From Polyangiaceae bacterium (lineage in GTDB: Bacteria; Myxococcota_A; Polyangia; Polyangiales; Polyangiaceae): 34,466 bases of DNA. Made by a program: the position numbers and the translations under genes. The stretch covers positions 1 through 34,466 of the forward strand of contig JAICQO010000073.1 in assembly GCA_025937835.1 (NCBI GenBank). Reading direction: 5' to 3'. Below the pieces are notes generated by a model, which was given only the letters and a program-made list of their open reading frames with translations, ran no database searches and was not told the origin of the DNA. The stretch's first letter is position 1, and the number at the start of each line of letters is the position of its first letter. Shown here in pieces: positions 17,080 to 34,001 of this stretch.

Positions 17080-17721
17080 ATGTTCGGACCGACGCAGTCA
17101 GCCGGCTCGCTCCTGGCAGTCTTCGCCCTTCTCCTCACTGCCTGCGCGGCGCAGCCGACGCACGGAACCATCAGCTCGATGTCGGTGGCGAAAAACCACG
17201 ACTGGAAAGCCTGCGAGCACGGGGTGCCCGAAGAGGTCTGCGTCCGCTGCCACCCGGAACGCGCCGCGAGCTTCAAGAAGAAGAAGGACTGGTGCCCGGA
17301 GCACGAGGTGCCCGAGTCGCAGTGCCTCGAGTGCCACCCGGATCTCGACTTCTCCCCGCCCAAGCAACCGCCGCCGAGCGCCGACATCGTCCAGCTCGTG
17401 AGTGACGGCAGTGACCTGCCCGCGCTCGAGCCGCACCTCGTCGCGAACAAGGTCACGGTGTTCGACTTTCACGCCACCTGGTGCCCGCCGTGCCGAAAGG
17501 TCGACGAACACCTGTATCCGATCCTGGCTCGGCGCTCGGACCTCGCCGTGCGCAAGATTGACATCGGCTCCTGGGACACGCCCGTGGCCGAGCGCTGGCT
17601 GCAGGAAGTGCCCGAGCTGCCGTACCTGGTCATCTTCGACAAGCAGGGCAAACGTGTGGCGGCGATCGCGGGAGCAAAGCTCGACGAGCTCGACCGCGTG
17701 CTCGCCGAGGCCAGCCGTTGA
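17080..17721 (+). CDS. Thioredoxin-fold lipoprotein with two Cys/His repeats
   Basis: 213 residues. The signal peptide ends LLTAC with the lipid Cys at 22. Two copies of a short motif follow: C45-x-H-x-VPEEV-C54-x2-C57-H58-P and C72-x2-H75-x-VPESQ-C82-x2-C85-H86-P, separated by a Lys-rich spacer. This repeat resembles the N-terminal Cys/His motif of some heavy-metal efflux adaptor proteins and probably binds a metal ion. A thioredoxin domain follows (about 105-210) with W134-C135-P-P-C138 and a cis-proline near 171. It probably faces the periplasm, acting as a reductase or metal chaperone. CxxCH is also the haem c motif, but each site is CxxCHP within a longer Cys/His pattern and only two occur, so a cytochrome is possible but less likely. 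Its stop overlaps the start of the next gene. Confidence 0.85.
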   Translation: MFGPTQSAGSLLAVFALLLTACAAQPTHGTISSMSVAKNHDWKACEHGVPEEVCVRCHPERAASFKKKKDWCPEHEVPESQCLECHPDLDFSPPKQPPPSADIVQLVSDGSDLPALEPHLVANKVTVFDFHATWCPPCRKVDEHLYPILARRSDLAVRKIDIGSWDTPVAERWLQEVPELPYLVIFDKQGKRVAAIAGAKLDELDRVLAEASR

Positions 17722-18740
17722 AGCGCGCCGCTTTCCTTGCGCTCCTCTCGCTCGCGAGCATTCCCCGCGTCGCGGACGCTTGCGCCGGCTGTCGCAACCC
17801 ATCGCTCGCCGTGACACGCGGCAGTGAAGGGCCGCTCGACGAACGCGCGCTCCGGCTCGGCCTCACCGCGACGGGCACGACCGTTCACGTCGTCCACGAG
17901 GCTGGCTGCCGGGATCTCGCAAACTGCTCCGAACAGCCGGCGCAGCCCGCGTACCTCCACGATCAGCACCTCTATCCGCTCGAGCTGCGTTTTGCAGCCG
18001 AATATGGCTTGAACGAGACGTTCGGCGTCGAGGTCCAGCTCCCGTTCCGCGCGGTCTCGACGACCATCGAGTACACGACTCCCGAGGGCGCGCCGTACGA
18101 ACCGCTCGACCCCGGCATCCACCACCGCGACGAGACGATCGCGGGCCTCGCCGATCCGTGGGTTCTGCTGCGCATCGGAACCAGCGTCGAGCGCTGGTGG
18201 CTCGCGGCGCGGCCGGGCGTTTCCCTTCCGCTCGGTCGTACCGAAGAGGATCCCTTCGAGCTCGGCGATCAAGGGCTGCGCCACCAGCACATCCAACTCG
18301 GAAGCGGCAGCTTCGATCCGGTGCTCGTCCTCGAAGCCTCGCGCGCATTCGGCGAACTGCGCTGGCAGCTGTTCGCGCAAGGGCAACTACCGCTGTACGA
18401 GAATCGCCACGGCTACCGTGCGCCCTGGCGCGTCTACGGCGGCACCTCGCTCGGAGCCGGCTTGCTCGGCGACCTCGCGGGCTCGCTGGGCGTCGAGGCG
18501 TTTCACGAAGCCGCAGAGCGCTGGGGCGGCAAGCTCCGGCAAGACGGCAACCTCGGCCGCAGCGAGCTGCTCGGAGCCGCCACGTTGACTCAATCGCTCG
18601 GCGCGACGGAGCTGACGCTCGGTGTCCGCGTCCCCTTTTTCCGGAAGATCGTCGAAGGCGACGAACCTCCGGGGACGCTCAGCTCGCCCGTGACTCTGAG
18701 CGCCGGAGTCTCGCACGTGTTCGGCAGCACCGCGCCCTGA
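17718..18740 (+). CDS. Probable outer-membrane beta-barrel protein
   Basis: 340 residues, started at a TTG whose last two bases overlap the stop of the thioredoxin gene (TTGA), so expression is coupled. A signal peptide spans about residues 1-21; just after it comes C22-A-G-C25, a CxxC pair, and two more Cys near 60-65. The rest alternates amphipathic strands and ends in a strand with a C-terminal VFGSTAP rather than the usual aromatic. Short Gly-rich turns (GGTSLGAGLLGDLAG) fit a transporter-like barrel. I do not recognise a named family. Coupling to a metal-binding thioredoxin lipoprotein suggests a joint role in metal or thiol handling at the envelope. No obvious terminator is seen after it. 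Confidence 0.7.
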   Translation: MKRAAFLALLSLASIPRVADACAGCRNPSLAVTRGSEGPLDERALRLGLTATGTTVHVVHEAGCRDLANCSEQPAQPAYLHDQHLYPLELRFAAEYGLNETFGVEVQLPFRAVSTTIEYTTPEGAPYEPLDPGIHHRDETIAGLADPWVLLRIGTSVERWWLAARPGVSLPLGRTEEDPFELGDQGLRHQHIQLGSGSFDPVLVLEASRAFGELRWQLFAQGQLPLYENRHGYRAPWRVYGGTSLGAGLLGDLAGSLGVEAFHEAAERWGGKLRQDGNLGRSELLGAATLTQSLGATELTLGVRVPFFRKIVEGDEPPGTLSSPVTLSAGVSHVFGSTAP

Positions 18741-18968
18741 GGGCTCAGGAAGGGCTCAGGATCGTCGCGTCGAGGCAGACTGCCATGATCCAAACGGTCC
18801 CCTTCTCCTTGTTTCGCTGCTGACTCGGACGCGCGCTCGGCACGAGGCACCGGTCCCGCGACACGCTGCGAGCGCTCGATCCGCATCGGGCCCGCTGACC
18901 GGCACCGTCACTCACGCGGGGATGGAACGCTTTTCGCCTTCGGCATGCGGCGAGCAAGGAGACCCCAC

Positions 18969-20174
18969 ATGACCATCGACCTTCTCAAAGATCGCGGCAC
19001 ACCCCTCGATCAACAACGCTTCACCTGGAAAGAGCTGGTTCAGCCTCCGTACAGCAAGCTCGACGACGACGCTTTCACGCGCGTGCGCGTGATCTTGATG
19101 AACGGCATCGAGTCGGAGTCGCTGCGCTTCAGCCACGCCTGTTCGCGCATGAACCGCGACCTTCAGCTCGAGCTCGCCAAGGTGCGGCGCGTCGAGCAGC
19201 ACCAGCAGACCCTGGTCAATTGGCTCAACCCGCCGGATCAGAACGTGCTCGAGACCACGATCGGCTTCGAGCAGGTCGCGATCGAGGTCACGGCCGCGAT
19301 CGCGCTCGCCGAGCCCGATCCGTACCTGGCGCAGGTTTACCGCTTCGGCCTGCTCGAAGACTTCGATCACATGTATCGCTACTCGGCGCTGATGGATCGC
19401 GTCGAAGGCAAGGACGCCAACAACCTGCTCCAGAGCTACACCGACGTCTTGCCCGGCCGGCCCACGGCCGTCGAGCACCGCCACCCGGCGGACGACCTAC
19501 GGACCCCCTACGACAAGCGCAAGGCGGCGCTGATCACGAAACTTCACGCAGCGACCTTGGTCGCCGGGGAATTTCAGACGCACGACTATTACATGACCGT
19601 CGGGCCAACCTACGCCGACCCGATCGGACGTCAGCTCTACGCCGAGATCGCGTCCATCGAGGAGCAGCACGTGACTCAGTACGAGTCGATTTGCGATCCG
19701 ACCGAGAGCTGGCTCGAGAAATGGCTCTTGCACGAAGCCAACGAGGTCTACAACTACTACAGCTGCGTCGAATCCGAGGGAAACAAGCGGATCAAGGCGA
19801 TCTGGGAGCGCTTCCTGGATTACGAGCTCGGACACCTGCAGCACGTGCGCGCGCTCTTCGAGTCGATCGAGCGCCGCGACGCAGCGGAGGTGCTGGACTC
19901 GAAGCTCCCGAAGCCGATCGCGTACGAGAGCCATCGCGAGTTCGTGCGCACCGTGCTTCGCAACGAGGTCGGCCTCACGGCCATGGGCCCCGCGTTCGTA
20001 CCGTTTTCGCAAGAGACCGCGGAGAGCCCGTCCGTCATCTACCGCAGCCACATGAACTCGGAGGGCTCACCGACGAACCTGGTGGCGGACGGCTACGTCT
20101 GGTCGCCGGGGACCGAGCTCGCCACGAAGCCGCCGATGGCTGGCCGGGGCAGCAGCGCCGCGCTCCCCGTCTGA
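18969..20174 (+). CDS. Ferritin-like superfamily protein (large, probably two bundles)
   Basis: 401 residues. AAGGAG at 18956-18961 is 7 bases before this ATG, which decides the start. The sequence is helical and rich in Glu and His at spacings typical of diiron or ferritin-like four-helix bundles: E50, E76 and H78, D131-x2-H134 in the first half; E201, E231-x2-H234 (ASIEEQH), E256/E259 and E286-x2-H289 in the second. This suggests a duplicated bundle, the second the better match. The tail after about 340 is Ser/Pro-rich and probably disordered. It may store or oxidise iron or act on another substrate. It is followed 35 bases later by a second ferritin-like gene, and the pair is probably one transcript. 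Inference rests on motif pattern only. Confidence 0.72.
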   Translation: MTIDLLKDRGTPLDQQRFTWKELVQPPYSKLDDDAFTRVRVILMNGIESESLRFSHACSRMNRDLQLELAKVRRVEQHQQTLVNWLNPPDQNVLETTIGFEQVAIEVTAAIALAEPDPYLAQVYRFGLLEDFDHMYRYSALMDRVEGKDANNLLQSYTDVLPGRPTAVEHRHPADDLRTPYDKRKAALITKLHAATLVAGEFQTHDYYMTVGPTYADPIGRQLYAEIASIEEQHVTQYESICDPTESWLEKWLLHEANEVYNYYSCVESEGNKRIKAIWERFLDYELGHLQHVRALFESIERRDAAEVLDSKLPKPIAYESHREFVRTVLRNEVGLTAMGPAFVPFSQETAESPSVIYRSHMNSEGSPTNLVADGYVWSPGTELATKPPMAGRGSSAALPV

Positions 20175-31235: not shown

Positions 31236-31634
31236 TCAGCGCCAGCGCTCCTGCTCGAGTAGCTCGACGACGCGAGCCTTGATTTGATCGCGGATTTGCC
31301 GAACGCGCACGAGGGGTAGGCCTTTCGGATCTTCGAGCGGCCAGTCGAGGCGGCGCAGGCCGGGCACGTGCGGGCAGGCTTCGCCGCAGCCCAGGGTGAC
31401 GAGGATCACGGCATGCTCAGCGAGCTCATCGGTGAGCTTCTGCGGCTGAACGCCTTCGAGCTCGACCCCGACCTCGCGCATGGCCTCGACGACCTCGGGG
31501 TGCACATGCGCTGCGGGCTGCGTGCCCGCGGACACTGCGCGCGCTTTTTTCGGATCCGAAAGGCGATTGAACCAGGCCGAAGCCATTTGAGAACGGCCAG
31601 CGTTGTGAACGCAGGCGAAGATCACGGTGTTCAT
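31236..31634 (-). CDS. arsC: Arsenate reductase (low-molecular-weight phosphatase type)
   Basis: 132 residues from the ATG at 31634, which overlaps the TGA of the aquaporin gene by four bases. The P-loop C8-V-H-N-A-G-R14-S is that of the low-molecular-weight tyrosine-phosphatase fold used by thioredoxin-linked arsenate reductases. A later Cys pair lies around TLGCGEACPH, matching the second and third redox cysteines of this type, and the DWPLEDP motif supplies the general-acid Asp. It reduces arsenate to arsenite, which the neighbouring channel can let out. The link with ArsR and the aquaporin makes arsenic the substrate rather than phosphotyrosine. Confidence 0.9.
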   Translation of the reverse strand: MNTVIFACVHNAGRSQMASAWFNRLSDPKKARAVSAGTQPAAHVHPEVVEAMREVGVELEGVQPQKLTDELAEHAVILVTLGCGEACPHVPGLRRLDWPLEDPKGLPLVRVRQIRDQIKARVVELLEQERWR

Positions 31635-32308
31635 GCTGCTACCTCTCGTCTTGGAACGAGCCACGAGAACAATGCGGTCGCCGCGGCCGCCCCCAGCAGC
31701 TGTGCGACCATGAAACCTGGCACGTCGATGGGTCGAATGCCTGCGAAGGTGTTGCTCGCGGCCCGCGCGAGCGTGACCGCGGGGTTGGCGAACGATGTCG
31801 ACGAAGTGAACCAGTACGCGGCCGTGATGTAGCTACCAACCGCGAAGGGTACGGCCGTGGGCCTCGTACGCGCCGAGCCCCAGATCGTAGCCAGCAGGCC
31901 AAAGGTGGCGATGAACTCGCCCGCGAGCTGCCCGCTGCCAGCTCGACTGTGTGTTGACGCCGAGAACAAGGGTTCACTGAACATCACGTGCGCGGCGGCA
32001 ACACCGAGGAATGCACCTGCCACCTGCGCGACGATGTACCCCACCGCCTTACGCCACGGCAAGGCGCCCTGAGCCGCGGCCGAGAGCGTCACGGCGGGGT
32101 TCAAGTGCGCTCCCGAGACGGCTCCGAAGGTCAGGATCAACGCGACGAGACCTGCGCCGGTGGCGAGCGTGTTGGCCAGCAGGGCCAGCGCGAGGTTTCC
32201 ACCCGCCAGCCGCTCGCCCATGATGCCTGAGCCGATCACGACCGCGAGTAAGAACGCCGTCCCGAGACCTTCCGAGACGAGTTGCCGCGCGAGAGAAGGC
32301 GGTGTCAT
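31631..32308 (-). CDS. aqpS: Aquaglyceroporin, probable arsenite channel
   Basis: 225-residue MIP-family channel. Six membrane helices and the two half-helix loops are visible: the first NPA box at 70-72 (SGAHLNPAVTL) and the second at 175-177 (SFANPAVTLARA). The start is the ATG at 32308, sharing one base with the stop of the truncated arsR (TGATG); the open frame continues upstream but in arsR sequence. The arsR-aqpS-arsC order is that of the Sinorhizobium arsenic operon, in which AqpS lets arsenite out after ArsC reduces arsenate. Glycerol or water transport is possible from sequence, but the operon argues for arsenite. Confidence 0.9.
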   Translation of the reverse strand: MTPPSLARQLVSEGLGTAFLLAVVIGSGIMGERLAGGNLALALLANTLATGAGLVALILTFGAVSGAHLNPAVTLSAAAQGALPWRKAVGYIVAQVAGAFLGVAAAHVMFSEPLFSASTHSRAGSGQLAGEFIATFGLLATIWGSARTRPTAVPFAVGSYITAAYWFTSSTSFANPAVTLARAASNTFAGIRPIDVPGFMVAQLLGAAAATALFSWLVPRREVAA

Positions 32309-32484
32309 CAACAGCAACTCGACTGGCCGCGCTTGCAGCAGTCTTCCCAGAGGTAGTCGGTGAGCGTGCGCAGGGCCGGATACTCGGCCTCGTAGTAGTG
32401 AAAGGTGCCCTGCGCGCGGCTGCGGAGTAGCCCGGCGTCGAGCAGGCGCTTCAAGTGGTGGTGTCGCTCGAGTTTGGAAGGCAC
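32308..32484 (-). pseudogene. arsR: Truncated ArsR-type repressor (C-terminal half only)
   Basis: This frame is shorter than usual gene-finder limits. Starting at a GTG at 32484 it encodes 58 residues: a recognition-helix-like HHHLKRLLDAGLL, a wing ending in FHYY, then a C-terminal helix and tail with vicinal cysteines (WEDCCKRGQSSCC), the arsenite-binding arrangement of some ArsR repressors. The frame has a TAA just 6 bases before that GTG, and only about 130 bases separate it from arsM, so the N-terminal half (helices 1-3) is absent. The stop overlaps the aqpS start, so the operon position is intact. It may be non-functional, or a mini-protein. Full-length ArsR proteins are about 100 residues or more. 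Confidence 0.7.
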
Positions 32485-32494
32485 GCCGCATTAT

Positions 32495-32510
32495 TTCCAA
32501 TAATTTGGAA
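32495..32510. promoter_or_regulatory. Inverted repeat TTCCAA-N4-TTGGAA, possible ArsR operator
   Basis: Perfect 6-base arms with a TAAT spacer, lying between the ArsR remnant and arsM. A third half-site TTGGAA occurs at 32474-32479 inside the remnant. The arms are AT-rich against a GC-rich background, as is usual for ArsR operators. A TTTGGAAG direct repeat (32473-32480 and 32504-32511) could also have been the site of a deletion. Confidence 0.55.
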
Positions 32511-32533
32511 GTAGCCGCAAGGCCCTTCTTTGA

Positions 32534-32548
32534 CTATTTTCGAAATAG
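32534..32548. promoter_or_regulatory. Second inverted repeat CTATTT-N3-AAATAG in the ars control region
   Basis: CTATTT (32534-32539), spacer TCG, AAATAG (32543-32548), about 65 bases before arsM and close to the TTCCAA palindrome. It may be a second operator or part of the arsM promoter; no clear minus-10/minus-35 pair was found. Confidence 0.4.
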
Positions 32549-32613
32549 CCGCTCCGCGGCGCTTTTTCTGCGTCCTTCGACGAGGGTCCCCGTCTTGAGG
32601 CTTGGAGGCCCCG

Positions 32614-33444
32614 ATGAACATCCAAGATAACGACCAAGTGAGAGCCCAGGTACGGAGCGCCTATGCTCAGGTGGCGCGCGGGCAAGACGGCTGCGGCGTG
32701 GGTTGCTGCGGAACGCAAGGCAACGGCAGCCTGGAGCTCGGCTACAGCGCAGACGAGCTGGCTAGCGTGCCGGACGGCGCCGATCTCGGGCTCGGCTGCG
32801 GCAACCCGCAGGCGATCGCGGCGTTACGACCGGGAGAGACGGTGCTCGATCTCGGCAGCGGTGCGGGCTTCGATTGCTTTCTGGCGGCGAAGCGCGTCGG
32901 GCGTAGCGGTCGCGTGATCGGCGTCGATATGACGCCCGAGATGGTCACCAAGGCGCGCGACAACGCGCGGCGAGTGGAGGCGAACAACGTCGACTTTCGG
33001 CTCGGCGAGATCGAGCACTTGCCGATCCTCGACGCGACCATCGACGCCATCCTTTCGAACTGGGTGATCAACCTGTCTCCCGACAAGGAGGCCGTCTTTC
33101 GCGAGGCATTTCGCGTCTTGAAGCCCGGAGGCAGGCTCGCGATTTCGGACGTGATCGCCACCCGGCCGATGCCGCCCGAGGTCGCGAAGAGCCTGGAGGC
33201 GTACACCGGCTGCATCGCAGGCGCGGCGAGTGAAGCGACCTTGCGCCGCCTGCTGGTCGAAGCCGGCTTCGCGGATGTCGTGATTCAGGTGCGCCCGGGC
33301 AGCGGCGAGTTCCTGGAGCGCTGCATGCCCGGCTCGGCAAGCTACGTCGCATCCGCGACCATCGAGGGGCGCAAGCCAGATGGGACCACCGGACACGACC
33401 GCTGCGGCCCTTCGTGTTGCGCTCCCGCGGAGCCGGCCCAGTGA
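32614..33444 (+). CDS. arsM: Arsenite S-adenosylmethionine methyltransferase
   Basis: 276 residues from the ATG at 32614, with GGAGG (32604-32608) 5 bases upstream; an in-frame TTG at 32602 lies in that site. SAM-binding motif VLDLGSGAGFDCFLAA (77-92), C62 in LGLGCGNP and C200 in YTGCIAGA are conserved arsenic-methylating features. The stretch ILSNWVINLSPDK (from 146) has W150 where the family normally has a Cys (SNCVINL). Extra cysteines lie at 27, 31 and 32 and at 264, 268 and 269. The enzyme converts arsenite to methylarsenicals in the cytosol. Its stop overlaps the GTG of the sigma gene. It is divergent from arsR-aqpS-arsC and shares its control region. Confidence 0.92.
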   Translation: MNIQDNDQVRAQVRSAYAQVARGQDGCGVGCCGTQGNGSLELGYSADELASVPDGADLGLGCGNPQAIAALRPGETVLDLGSGAGFDCFLAAKRVGRSGRVIGVDMTPEMVTKARDNARRVEANNVDFRLGEIEHLPILDATIDAILSNWVINLSPDKEAVFREAFRVLKPGGRLAISDVIATRPMPPEVAKSLEAYTGCIAGAASEATLRRLLVEAGFADVVIQVRPGSGEFLERCMPGSASYVASATIEGRKPDGTTGHDRCGPSCCAPAEPAQ

Positions 33445-34001
33445 TAACGCCCGAAGCACGCGGCGCCTGGCGTGAGCTCGAAGCACGGCTCCGGCCGTAC
33501 GTCGCGCGCCGCGTGGCTTCGGTGGCCGACATCGACGACGTGCTGCAAGACACGCTCGTTCGAGTGCACCGCGGCGTGGCTGAGCTCGCGGAAGAAGAGC
33601 GCTTCGGGCCCTGGGTGTACCGCGTGGCCTCGAATGCCATCGTGGATCACCGCCGCGCGCGCAAGCGGCATCCGCTGCCGGCGAACGAGCCGAACCCGGA
33701 AGAACGGCCAGCGCTCGAACCCGATAGCGACCTCGAATCGGAGCTCGCCGAATGCATTGCGCTCTTCGTCGCGCGCTTGCCGTCGCCGTACCGCGAGGCC
33801 GTGACGCTCACCGAGCTGCAGGGTCTGACTCAAAAGGACGCCGCGGATCTGCTCGGTGTCACGCTCTCGGCCATGAAATCGCGGGTTCAGCGCGGGCGCG
33901 GGCTCATCCGCCGGATGTTCGAAGAATGCTGCGAGCTCACCCTGGACTGCCGCGGGCGAGTGACGGAATGCAGGCCGCGCGCAAGTAGATCGCAAGCCTG
34001 A
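33441..34001 (+). CDS. sigZ: SigZ-like RNA polymerase sigma factor
   Basis: 186 residues from the GTG at 33441, which overlaps the arsM stop (GTGA). Region 2 (about 10-75) shows RRVASVADIDDVLQDTLVRV and FGPWVYRVASNAIVDHRRAR; region 4 (about 110-165) shows LPSPYREAVTLTELQGLTQ and the AADLLGVTLSAMKSRVQRGR helix-turn-helix, as in group IV sigma factors. No anti-sigma gene follows. After region 4 a short tail carries CCELTLDCRGRVTEC, which by memory matches the tail of SigZ-type factors and could sense thiol-reactive agents. Coupling to arsM suggests arsenic control; this is inference. Confidence 0.85.
   Translation: MITPEARGAWRELEARLRPYVARRVASVADIDDVLQDTLVRVHRGVAELAEEERFGPWVYRVASNAIVDHRRARKRHPLPANEPNPEERPALEPDSDLESELAECIALFVARLPSPYREAVTLTELQGLTQKDAADLLGVTLSAMKSRVQRGRGLIRRMFEECCELTLDCRGRVTECRPRASRSQA

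Follow-up and report, generated by a model that had tools for sequence, protein, structure and literature searches.

A conserved overlapping gene pair encodes a thioredoxin lipoprotein with Cys/His repeats and a predicted outer-membrane barrel whose N-terminal CAGC is predicted to be Sec-x-x-Sec in most relatives

The window analyzed here, a stretch of 34,466 nucleotides from a Polyangiaceae bacterium, contains two overlapping genes, A and B, that raise the question of why a lipoprotein combining Cys/His repeats with a thioredoxin domain would be coupled to an outer-membrane barrel. An original prediction from the sequence proposed that metal capture, thiol reduction, and outer-membrane passage are joined in one operon as an envelope metal-handling module. 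We examined the composition of both proteins, the conservation of the pair, the motif at the mature N terminus of B, and the explanations that compete for these observations.

Gene A (positions 17080 to 17721, + strand) encodes a 213-residue lipoprotein with a signal peptide and the lipobox LTAC at residues 19 to 22 (LTA-C22; 17134 to 17145, +), and Cys22 was invariant in 13 homologues. By the E. coli Lol rule, the Ala at position +2 suggests that A may be sorted to the outer membrane. As originally predicted, two Cys/His repeats, CEHGVPEEVCVRCHP at residues 45 to 59 (17212 to 17256, +) and CPEHEVPESQCLECHP at residues 72 to 87 (17293 to 17340, +), precede a thioredoxin domain (17374 to 17718, +) with a WCPPC active site at residues 134 to 138 (17479 to 17493, +). 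This domain passed the PF00085 curated cut-off (E value of 2.7e-8; 34.2 bits versus 23.5), and thioredoxin structures aligned to the AlphaFold2 model of A with a Z score of 14. Across 13 homologues of the window type of A, the invariant residues included C45, H47, and C54 of repeat 1, C72, H75, C82, C85, and H86 of repeat 2, and C135 and C138 of the active site; C57 of repeat 1 was lost in three homologues. A Pfam scan of the window A gave no match to HMA (PF00403) or to the RND adaptor domains PF16576 and PF13437, and the sequence search for solved relatives of its N-terminal Cys/His domain returned none that was significant. Thioredoxins dominated the fold comparison of A, which thereby barely probed the N-terminal domain, and a scan of the genome contigs for close relatives found distant thioredoxins only. 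Like TlpA, ResA, DsbE, and the C-terminal domain of DsbD, A places a WCxxC thioredoxin fold in the envelope. However, none of the NCBIfam models for TlpA, ResA, DsbE, or DsbD reached its cut-off on A, which adds a putative metal-binding domain and a dedicated outer-membrane barrel that is overlapping or fused.

Gene B (17718 to 18740, +) encodes 340 residues and starts with the TTG at 17718, so that the two genes, which together fill the interval of the original prediction, share the TTGA that contains the stop codon of A (17718 to 17721, +). The signal peptide of B ends in ADA and is followed by CAGC at residues 22 to 25 (17781 to 17792, +), confirming the overlap and the predicted start of the mature protein. 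C22 and C25 were invariantly Cys or Sec in 16 aligned members. The window B matched no NCBIfam model and no Pfam family at an E value of ≤1, one relative matched OMP_b-brl below the cut-off, and no NCBIfam barrel model fit the 16 aligned members. AlphaFold2 with 16 homologues returned a confident beta-barrel (pLDDT of 81, with residues 1 to 35 below 50), in which residues 45 to 335 (17850 to 18722, +) form a predicted 12-stranded barrel. Among solved structures, the model aligned best to the COG4313 channel Pput2725 (4rl8) with a Z score of 23.3 (247 residues, rmsd of 2.7, about 12% identity) and to FapF (5o65) with a Z score of 23.4, and like these solved 12-stranded channels it has an N-terminal segment before the first strand. 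B is thus predicted from its model to be an outer-membrane channel with the fold shared by COG4313 and FapF, which bears out the original assignment as an outer-membrane barrel. In contrast to B, which has both, Pput2725 is mentioned with neither a Cys/Sec pair nor a thioredoxin partner in the accessible part of its report (PMC4493636).

Searches for B homologues among relatives, in the class, and in the phylum of the window yielded 113 loci scoring at least 80 bits. In 55 of these loci, a thioredoxin gene directly preceded B in the same orientation, and in another 38 the thioredoxin was fused to the C terminus of B; a partner went undetected in 20, some owing to a contig end. Among the 55 separate pairs, 53 overlapped, 46 by a 4-nucleotide NTGA and 7 by 1 nucleotide, and every detected adjacent or fused thioredoxin partner contained a WCxxC active site. 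In another phylum, reached via a Pseudodesulfovibrio record, the pair occurred in 2 of 395 genomes, with an HMA-like motif and two in-frame TGAs. The original prediction had proposed looking for the same fusion and pair in other genomes, and many were found to contain them, so that lack of conservation does not count against it. Since the elements of A and B are conserved in relatives, their combination cannot be ascribed to chance. These comparisons provide good support for A and B as a conserved overlapping pair that is fused in many relatives, confirming the proposed coupling of thioredoxin and barrel.

The CAGC of the window B is encoded with TGC and TGT at its cysteines and contains no Sec codon. 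In contrast, 92 of the 113 family loci had TGA-x-x-TGA (UxxU) at this place, and both TGAs coincided with the two Cys codons of the CxxC forms. The other loci included 5 CxxU forms, 9 CxxC forms besides the window, and 5 single-Cys paralogues, and an additional CxxU case (L160) scored lower than the 5 counted. The single-Cys paralogues (L133, L135, L136, L137, and L141) are thioredoxin-fused barrels with one Cys (ATCSNPG or ATCNNPG) and no TGA, and four of the five were in genomes also carrying a UxxU or CxxU copy. A hairpin with a 7-bp stem and a GGUC loop (consensus ACCUNCC-GGUC-GGNGGGU) immediately follows the second TGA on its 3' side and was 91.8% paired on 47 sequences. Covariation in this hairpin amounted to 27 doubly changed cells versus 7.1 ± 2.3 in shuffled alignments (0 of 500 reached this number) and 0 to 6 in slid controls. 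Because the strongest covarying pair joins a Leu wobble position with a Gly wobble position, constraint on the protein fails to explain the covariation. The Cys forms of B did not form this SECIS-like hairpin, and at its position in the window B (17803 to 17820, +) the pairing is lost.

The distribution of the Sec machinery followed the form of the motif. SelB was detected at an E value of ≤1e-60 in 81 of 94 genomes with U forms versus 1 of 10 with CxxC forms (G527 being the sole one), a difference with a Fisher P value of 1.6e-6 that ignores kinship of the genomes. The misses in the remaining 13 U genomes likely reflect incomplete assemblies; among seven class-level U genomes without SelB, six contained tRNA-Sec, with G199 as the exception. 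No tRNA-Sec exceeded the cut-off in the four CxxC genomes tested, including that of the window (G000), which also lacked detectable SelB. One genome with neither SelB nor a tRNA-Sec over the cut-off (G026) kept A but had no B between the same neighbors as in the related genome G010. Another genome has selB, tRNA-Sec, and a fused UxxU barrel-thioredoxin gene clustered in a stretch of about 5 kb (L063; G014:C1:12674-17840). Two other explanations for the TGAs were considered and rejected. A changed genetic code does not account for them, as separate A genes mostly stop on TGA and the in-frame TGAs fall at Cys positions with a SECIS-like hairpin and SelB; nor does pseudogenization, given TGAs at the two Cys positions beside that hairpin and the presence of SelB. 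Sequence comparison thus gives good support for the view that CAGC of the window B represents the Cys version of what would be a Sec-x-x-Sec motif in most relatives.

A quick tree built from 112 barrels required two changes of the CxxC label, of which the starred branches force only one. In this tree, the window B lay nearest to members with CxxC from another family of the phylum, at 47% identity, and seven other genomes of the window's own genus gave no B match. The patchy distribution of CxxC forms suggests that the Cys-only version of B may have spread horizontally among genomes mostly without Sec machinery.

The region preceding the thioredoxin domain points to metal binding. This slot was HMA-like in many separate UxxU pairs, with one partner (L052) reaching the gathering cut-off of PF00403 at 24.8 bits and the others falling below it, and twin Cys/His repeats occupied it in every one of the 10 CxxC pairs and in 3 UxxU pairs. 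Our motif test scored 22 separate partners as other, several of which appeared HMA-like by eye without Pfam confirmation. Nearly all fused forms had a His-rich linker between the barrel and the thioredoxin. In agreement with the original prediction, which placed the repeat in efflux adaptors, CusB/CzcB-type RND adaptors contain it as well, and one of them adjoins a CusA/CzcA pump; these adaptors share C-x(1-2)-H-x-(V/L/F)PE-x2-C-x2-C(H/N)P with A. Unlike them, A has no HlyD barrel-sandwich, contains a thioredoxin domain instead, and has no RND pump beside it. We also observed small twin-Cys/His proteins directly upstream of CusB/CzcB-type adaptors with the same repeat (L021, L022, L023, L031, and L032), and neither of the two scanned had a Pfam match. 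The HMA-like and Cys/His elements in the slot support the metal-binding part of the proposed envelope metal handling.

We propose that A and B form a self-contained envelope module of two genes, in which the lipoprotein uses its thioredoxin to reduce a dithiol or diselenol plug of an outer-membrane channel and exchanges a soft metal with that plug, a reading to which we give a probability of roughly 0.5. Its support is split: sequence comparison establishes the pairing, the overlap, the fusion, the apparent Cys/Sec interchange, the SECIS-like hairpin, and the co-occurrence with Sec machinery, the barrel fold is a prediction, and reduction of the pair by A, metal transfer, and gating are inferred. 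In the solved COG4313 channel, the N-terminal 14 or so residues are reported to fold into the lumen and constrict its periplasmic side (PMC4493636). By comparison, the mature N terminus of B would be a redox-active pair at the periplasmic side of the barrel, CxxC in the window and Sec-x-x-Sec in most relatives; this plug position of CAGC is drawn by analogy because residues 1 to 35 of the model have a pLDDT under 50. A would face the periplasm, with its thioredoxin domain keeping the Cys/Sec pair of B reduced and its metal domain delivering a soft metal ion to that reduced pair or accepting one from it. Metal and thiol or selenol state may then determine what passes through the channel or is captured at its mouth. 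Export or sequestration of a soft metal (of the Cu, Ag, Hg, or Cd type) is weakly favored over uptake. In broader form, and with somewhat less than even odds, the family may represent a widespread and so far undescribed envelope system, an outer-membrane channel whose gate is a diselenide or selenol-metal switch in the N-terminal plug. A metal-binding thioredoxin lipoprotein reserved for this channel would drive it, and Cys-only versions, the window's among them, would occur in genomes mostly without Sec machinery.

The main rival to a metal-exchanging module is a role in redox chemistry only, where A is a dedicated reductase, the dithiol or diselenol of B is a surface redox site for peroxide or electrophile removal or for a redox-gated pore, and the metal elements are structural or sensing with no transport. 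We regard this explanation as a real but clearly weaker contender. The WCxxC in every detected partner fits it well, and a redox function is assumed for most uncharacterized selenoproteins (PMC13188914). The position just ahead of the second thioredoxin Cys was also non-Pro in 6 of 10 CxxC pairs versus 2 of 79 U pairs, as if the thioredoxin had been retuned to its target, a comparison confounded by shared descent. However, the presence of three kinds of metal element in the partner (HMA, Cys/His, and His-rich linker) better fits metal handling. Whether metal or redox is involved, the B family probably handles traffic of one or the other at the bacterial surface.

The predicted fold of B lends itself to another explanation, that B is a COG4313-type uptake channel for a hydrophobic or an organometal(loid) or organoselenium substrate that the Cys/Sec pair captures or activates, with A regenerating the pair. 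The COG4313 family is implicated in uptake of hydrophobic molecules (PMC4493636), a link to such compounds and not to metals that counts against the metal-exchanging module, and a Sec-assisted organometallic system (SAO) has been proposed earlier (PMC13188914). Yet catabolic or organometal genes do not recur beside the pair and Pfam detected no sequence similarity between B and characterized COG4313 channels, which leaves this explanation rather unlikely. The original prediction had itself raised haem attachment at CxxCH, which would make A a small cytochrome-thioredoxin. Both repeats of the window do end in CxxCH, this motif is invariant in repeat 2 of the 13 A homologues, and A gave sub-threshold matches to cytochrome c7, NrfH, and MtrC. 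Because the residue after CxxC across 50 repeats was His in only 21 and Asn in another 21, the haem reading is weakened. The second Cys of repeat 1 is moreover gone in three homologues, conservation is just as high at the upstream C-x(1-2)-H, relatives have HMA domains in the same slot, and no cytochrome model exceeded its cut-off for A. We therefore consider haem binding by A highly improbable.

The UxxU barrel is probably an apparently undescribed selenoprotein family composed of known folds. We found no description of the pair in the literature, with the families of Haft and Tolstoy (2025) judged via a review table and NCBIfam only, and no such protein appears in the accessible portion of a 2026 inventory that covers 119 prokaryotic selenoprotein families and subfamilies (PMC13188914). 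In that inventory, few families contain two or three Sec residues and very few are outer-membrane barrels (PMC13188914). Predicted Sec-containing outer-membrane barrels include the MtrB/PioB-type GSU2204 family (NF041027) and the FCYXU TonB-dependent receptor (NF049945) (PMC13188914), but the B family differs from both in its N-terminal UxxU, its thioredoxin lipoprotein, and its lack of an NCBIfam barrel match. The SAO and Tso multi-selenoprotein operons likewise combine Sec with thioredoxin-like and metal-related proteins (PMC13188914), but their gene content differs from that of the pair, and the similarity of A to the TsoB model was confined to the thioredoxin part of that model, at 31 of 805 bits and far below the cut-off. 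Gene callers will usually cut such genes short at the TGAs around codon 25, and the family may have escaped notice for this reason. The roughly 100 Sec-containing members would add an apparently unlisted double-selenocysteine family to the census and suggest a cell-surface channel that depends on both redox state and metal. They also offer a natural Sec/Cys comparison, with the same module in UxxU or CxxC form largely according to SelB in the host.

In our neighbor-gene analysis of the B loci, no neighbor was conserved beyond A and B, and the pair thus has no metal-resistance context, a point against the metal-exchanging module. At two loci (L067:4807-5890 and L123), related membrane proteins are encoded directly upstream of a CxxU barrel gene. 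The one at L067 is Cys-rich, and its gene is preceded by an ECF-sigma-like gene, an arrangement that may represent a metal or redox regulator. Just downstream of the A-B pair in the window is an open reading frame of 409 residues (18945 to 20174) with no Pfam match. Farther along, the window contains an arsenic-type cluster (31236 to 34001) composed of a gene resembling low-molecular-weight phosphatases and arsenate reductases, a MIP channel gene, and an ArsM-like methyltransferase gene, followed by an ECF sigma factor gene.
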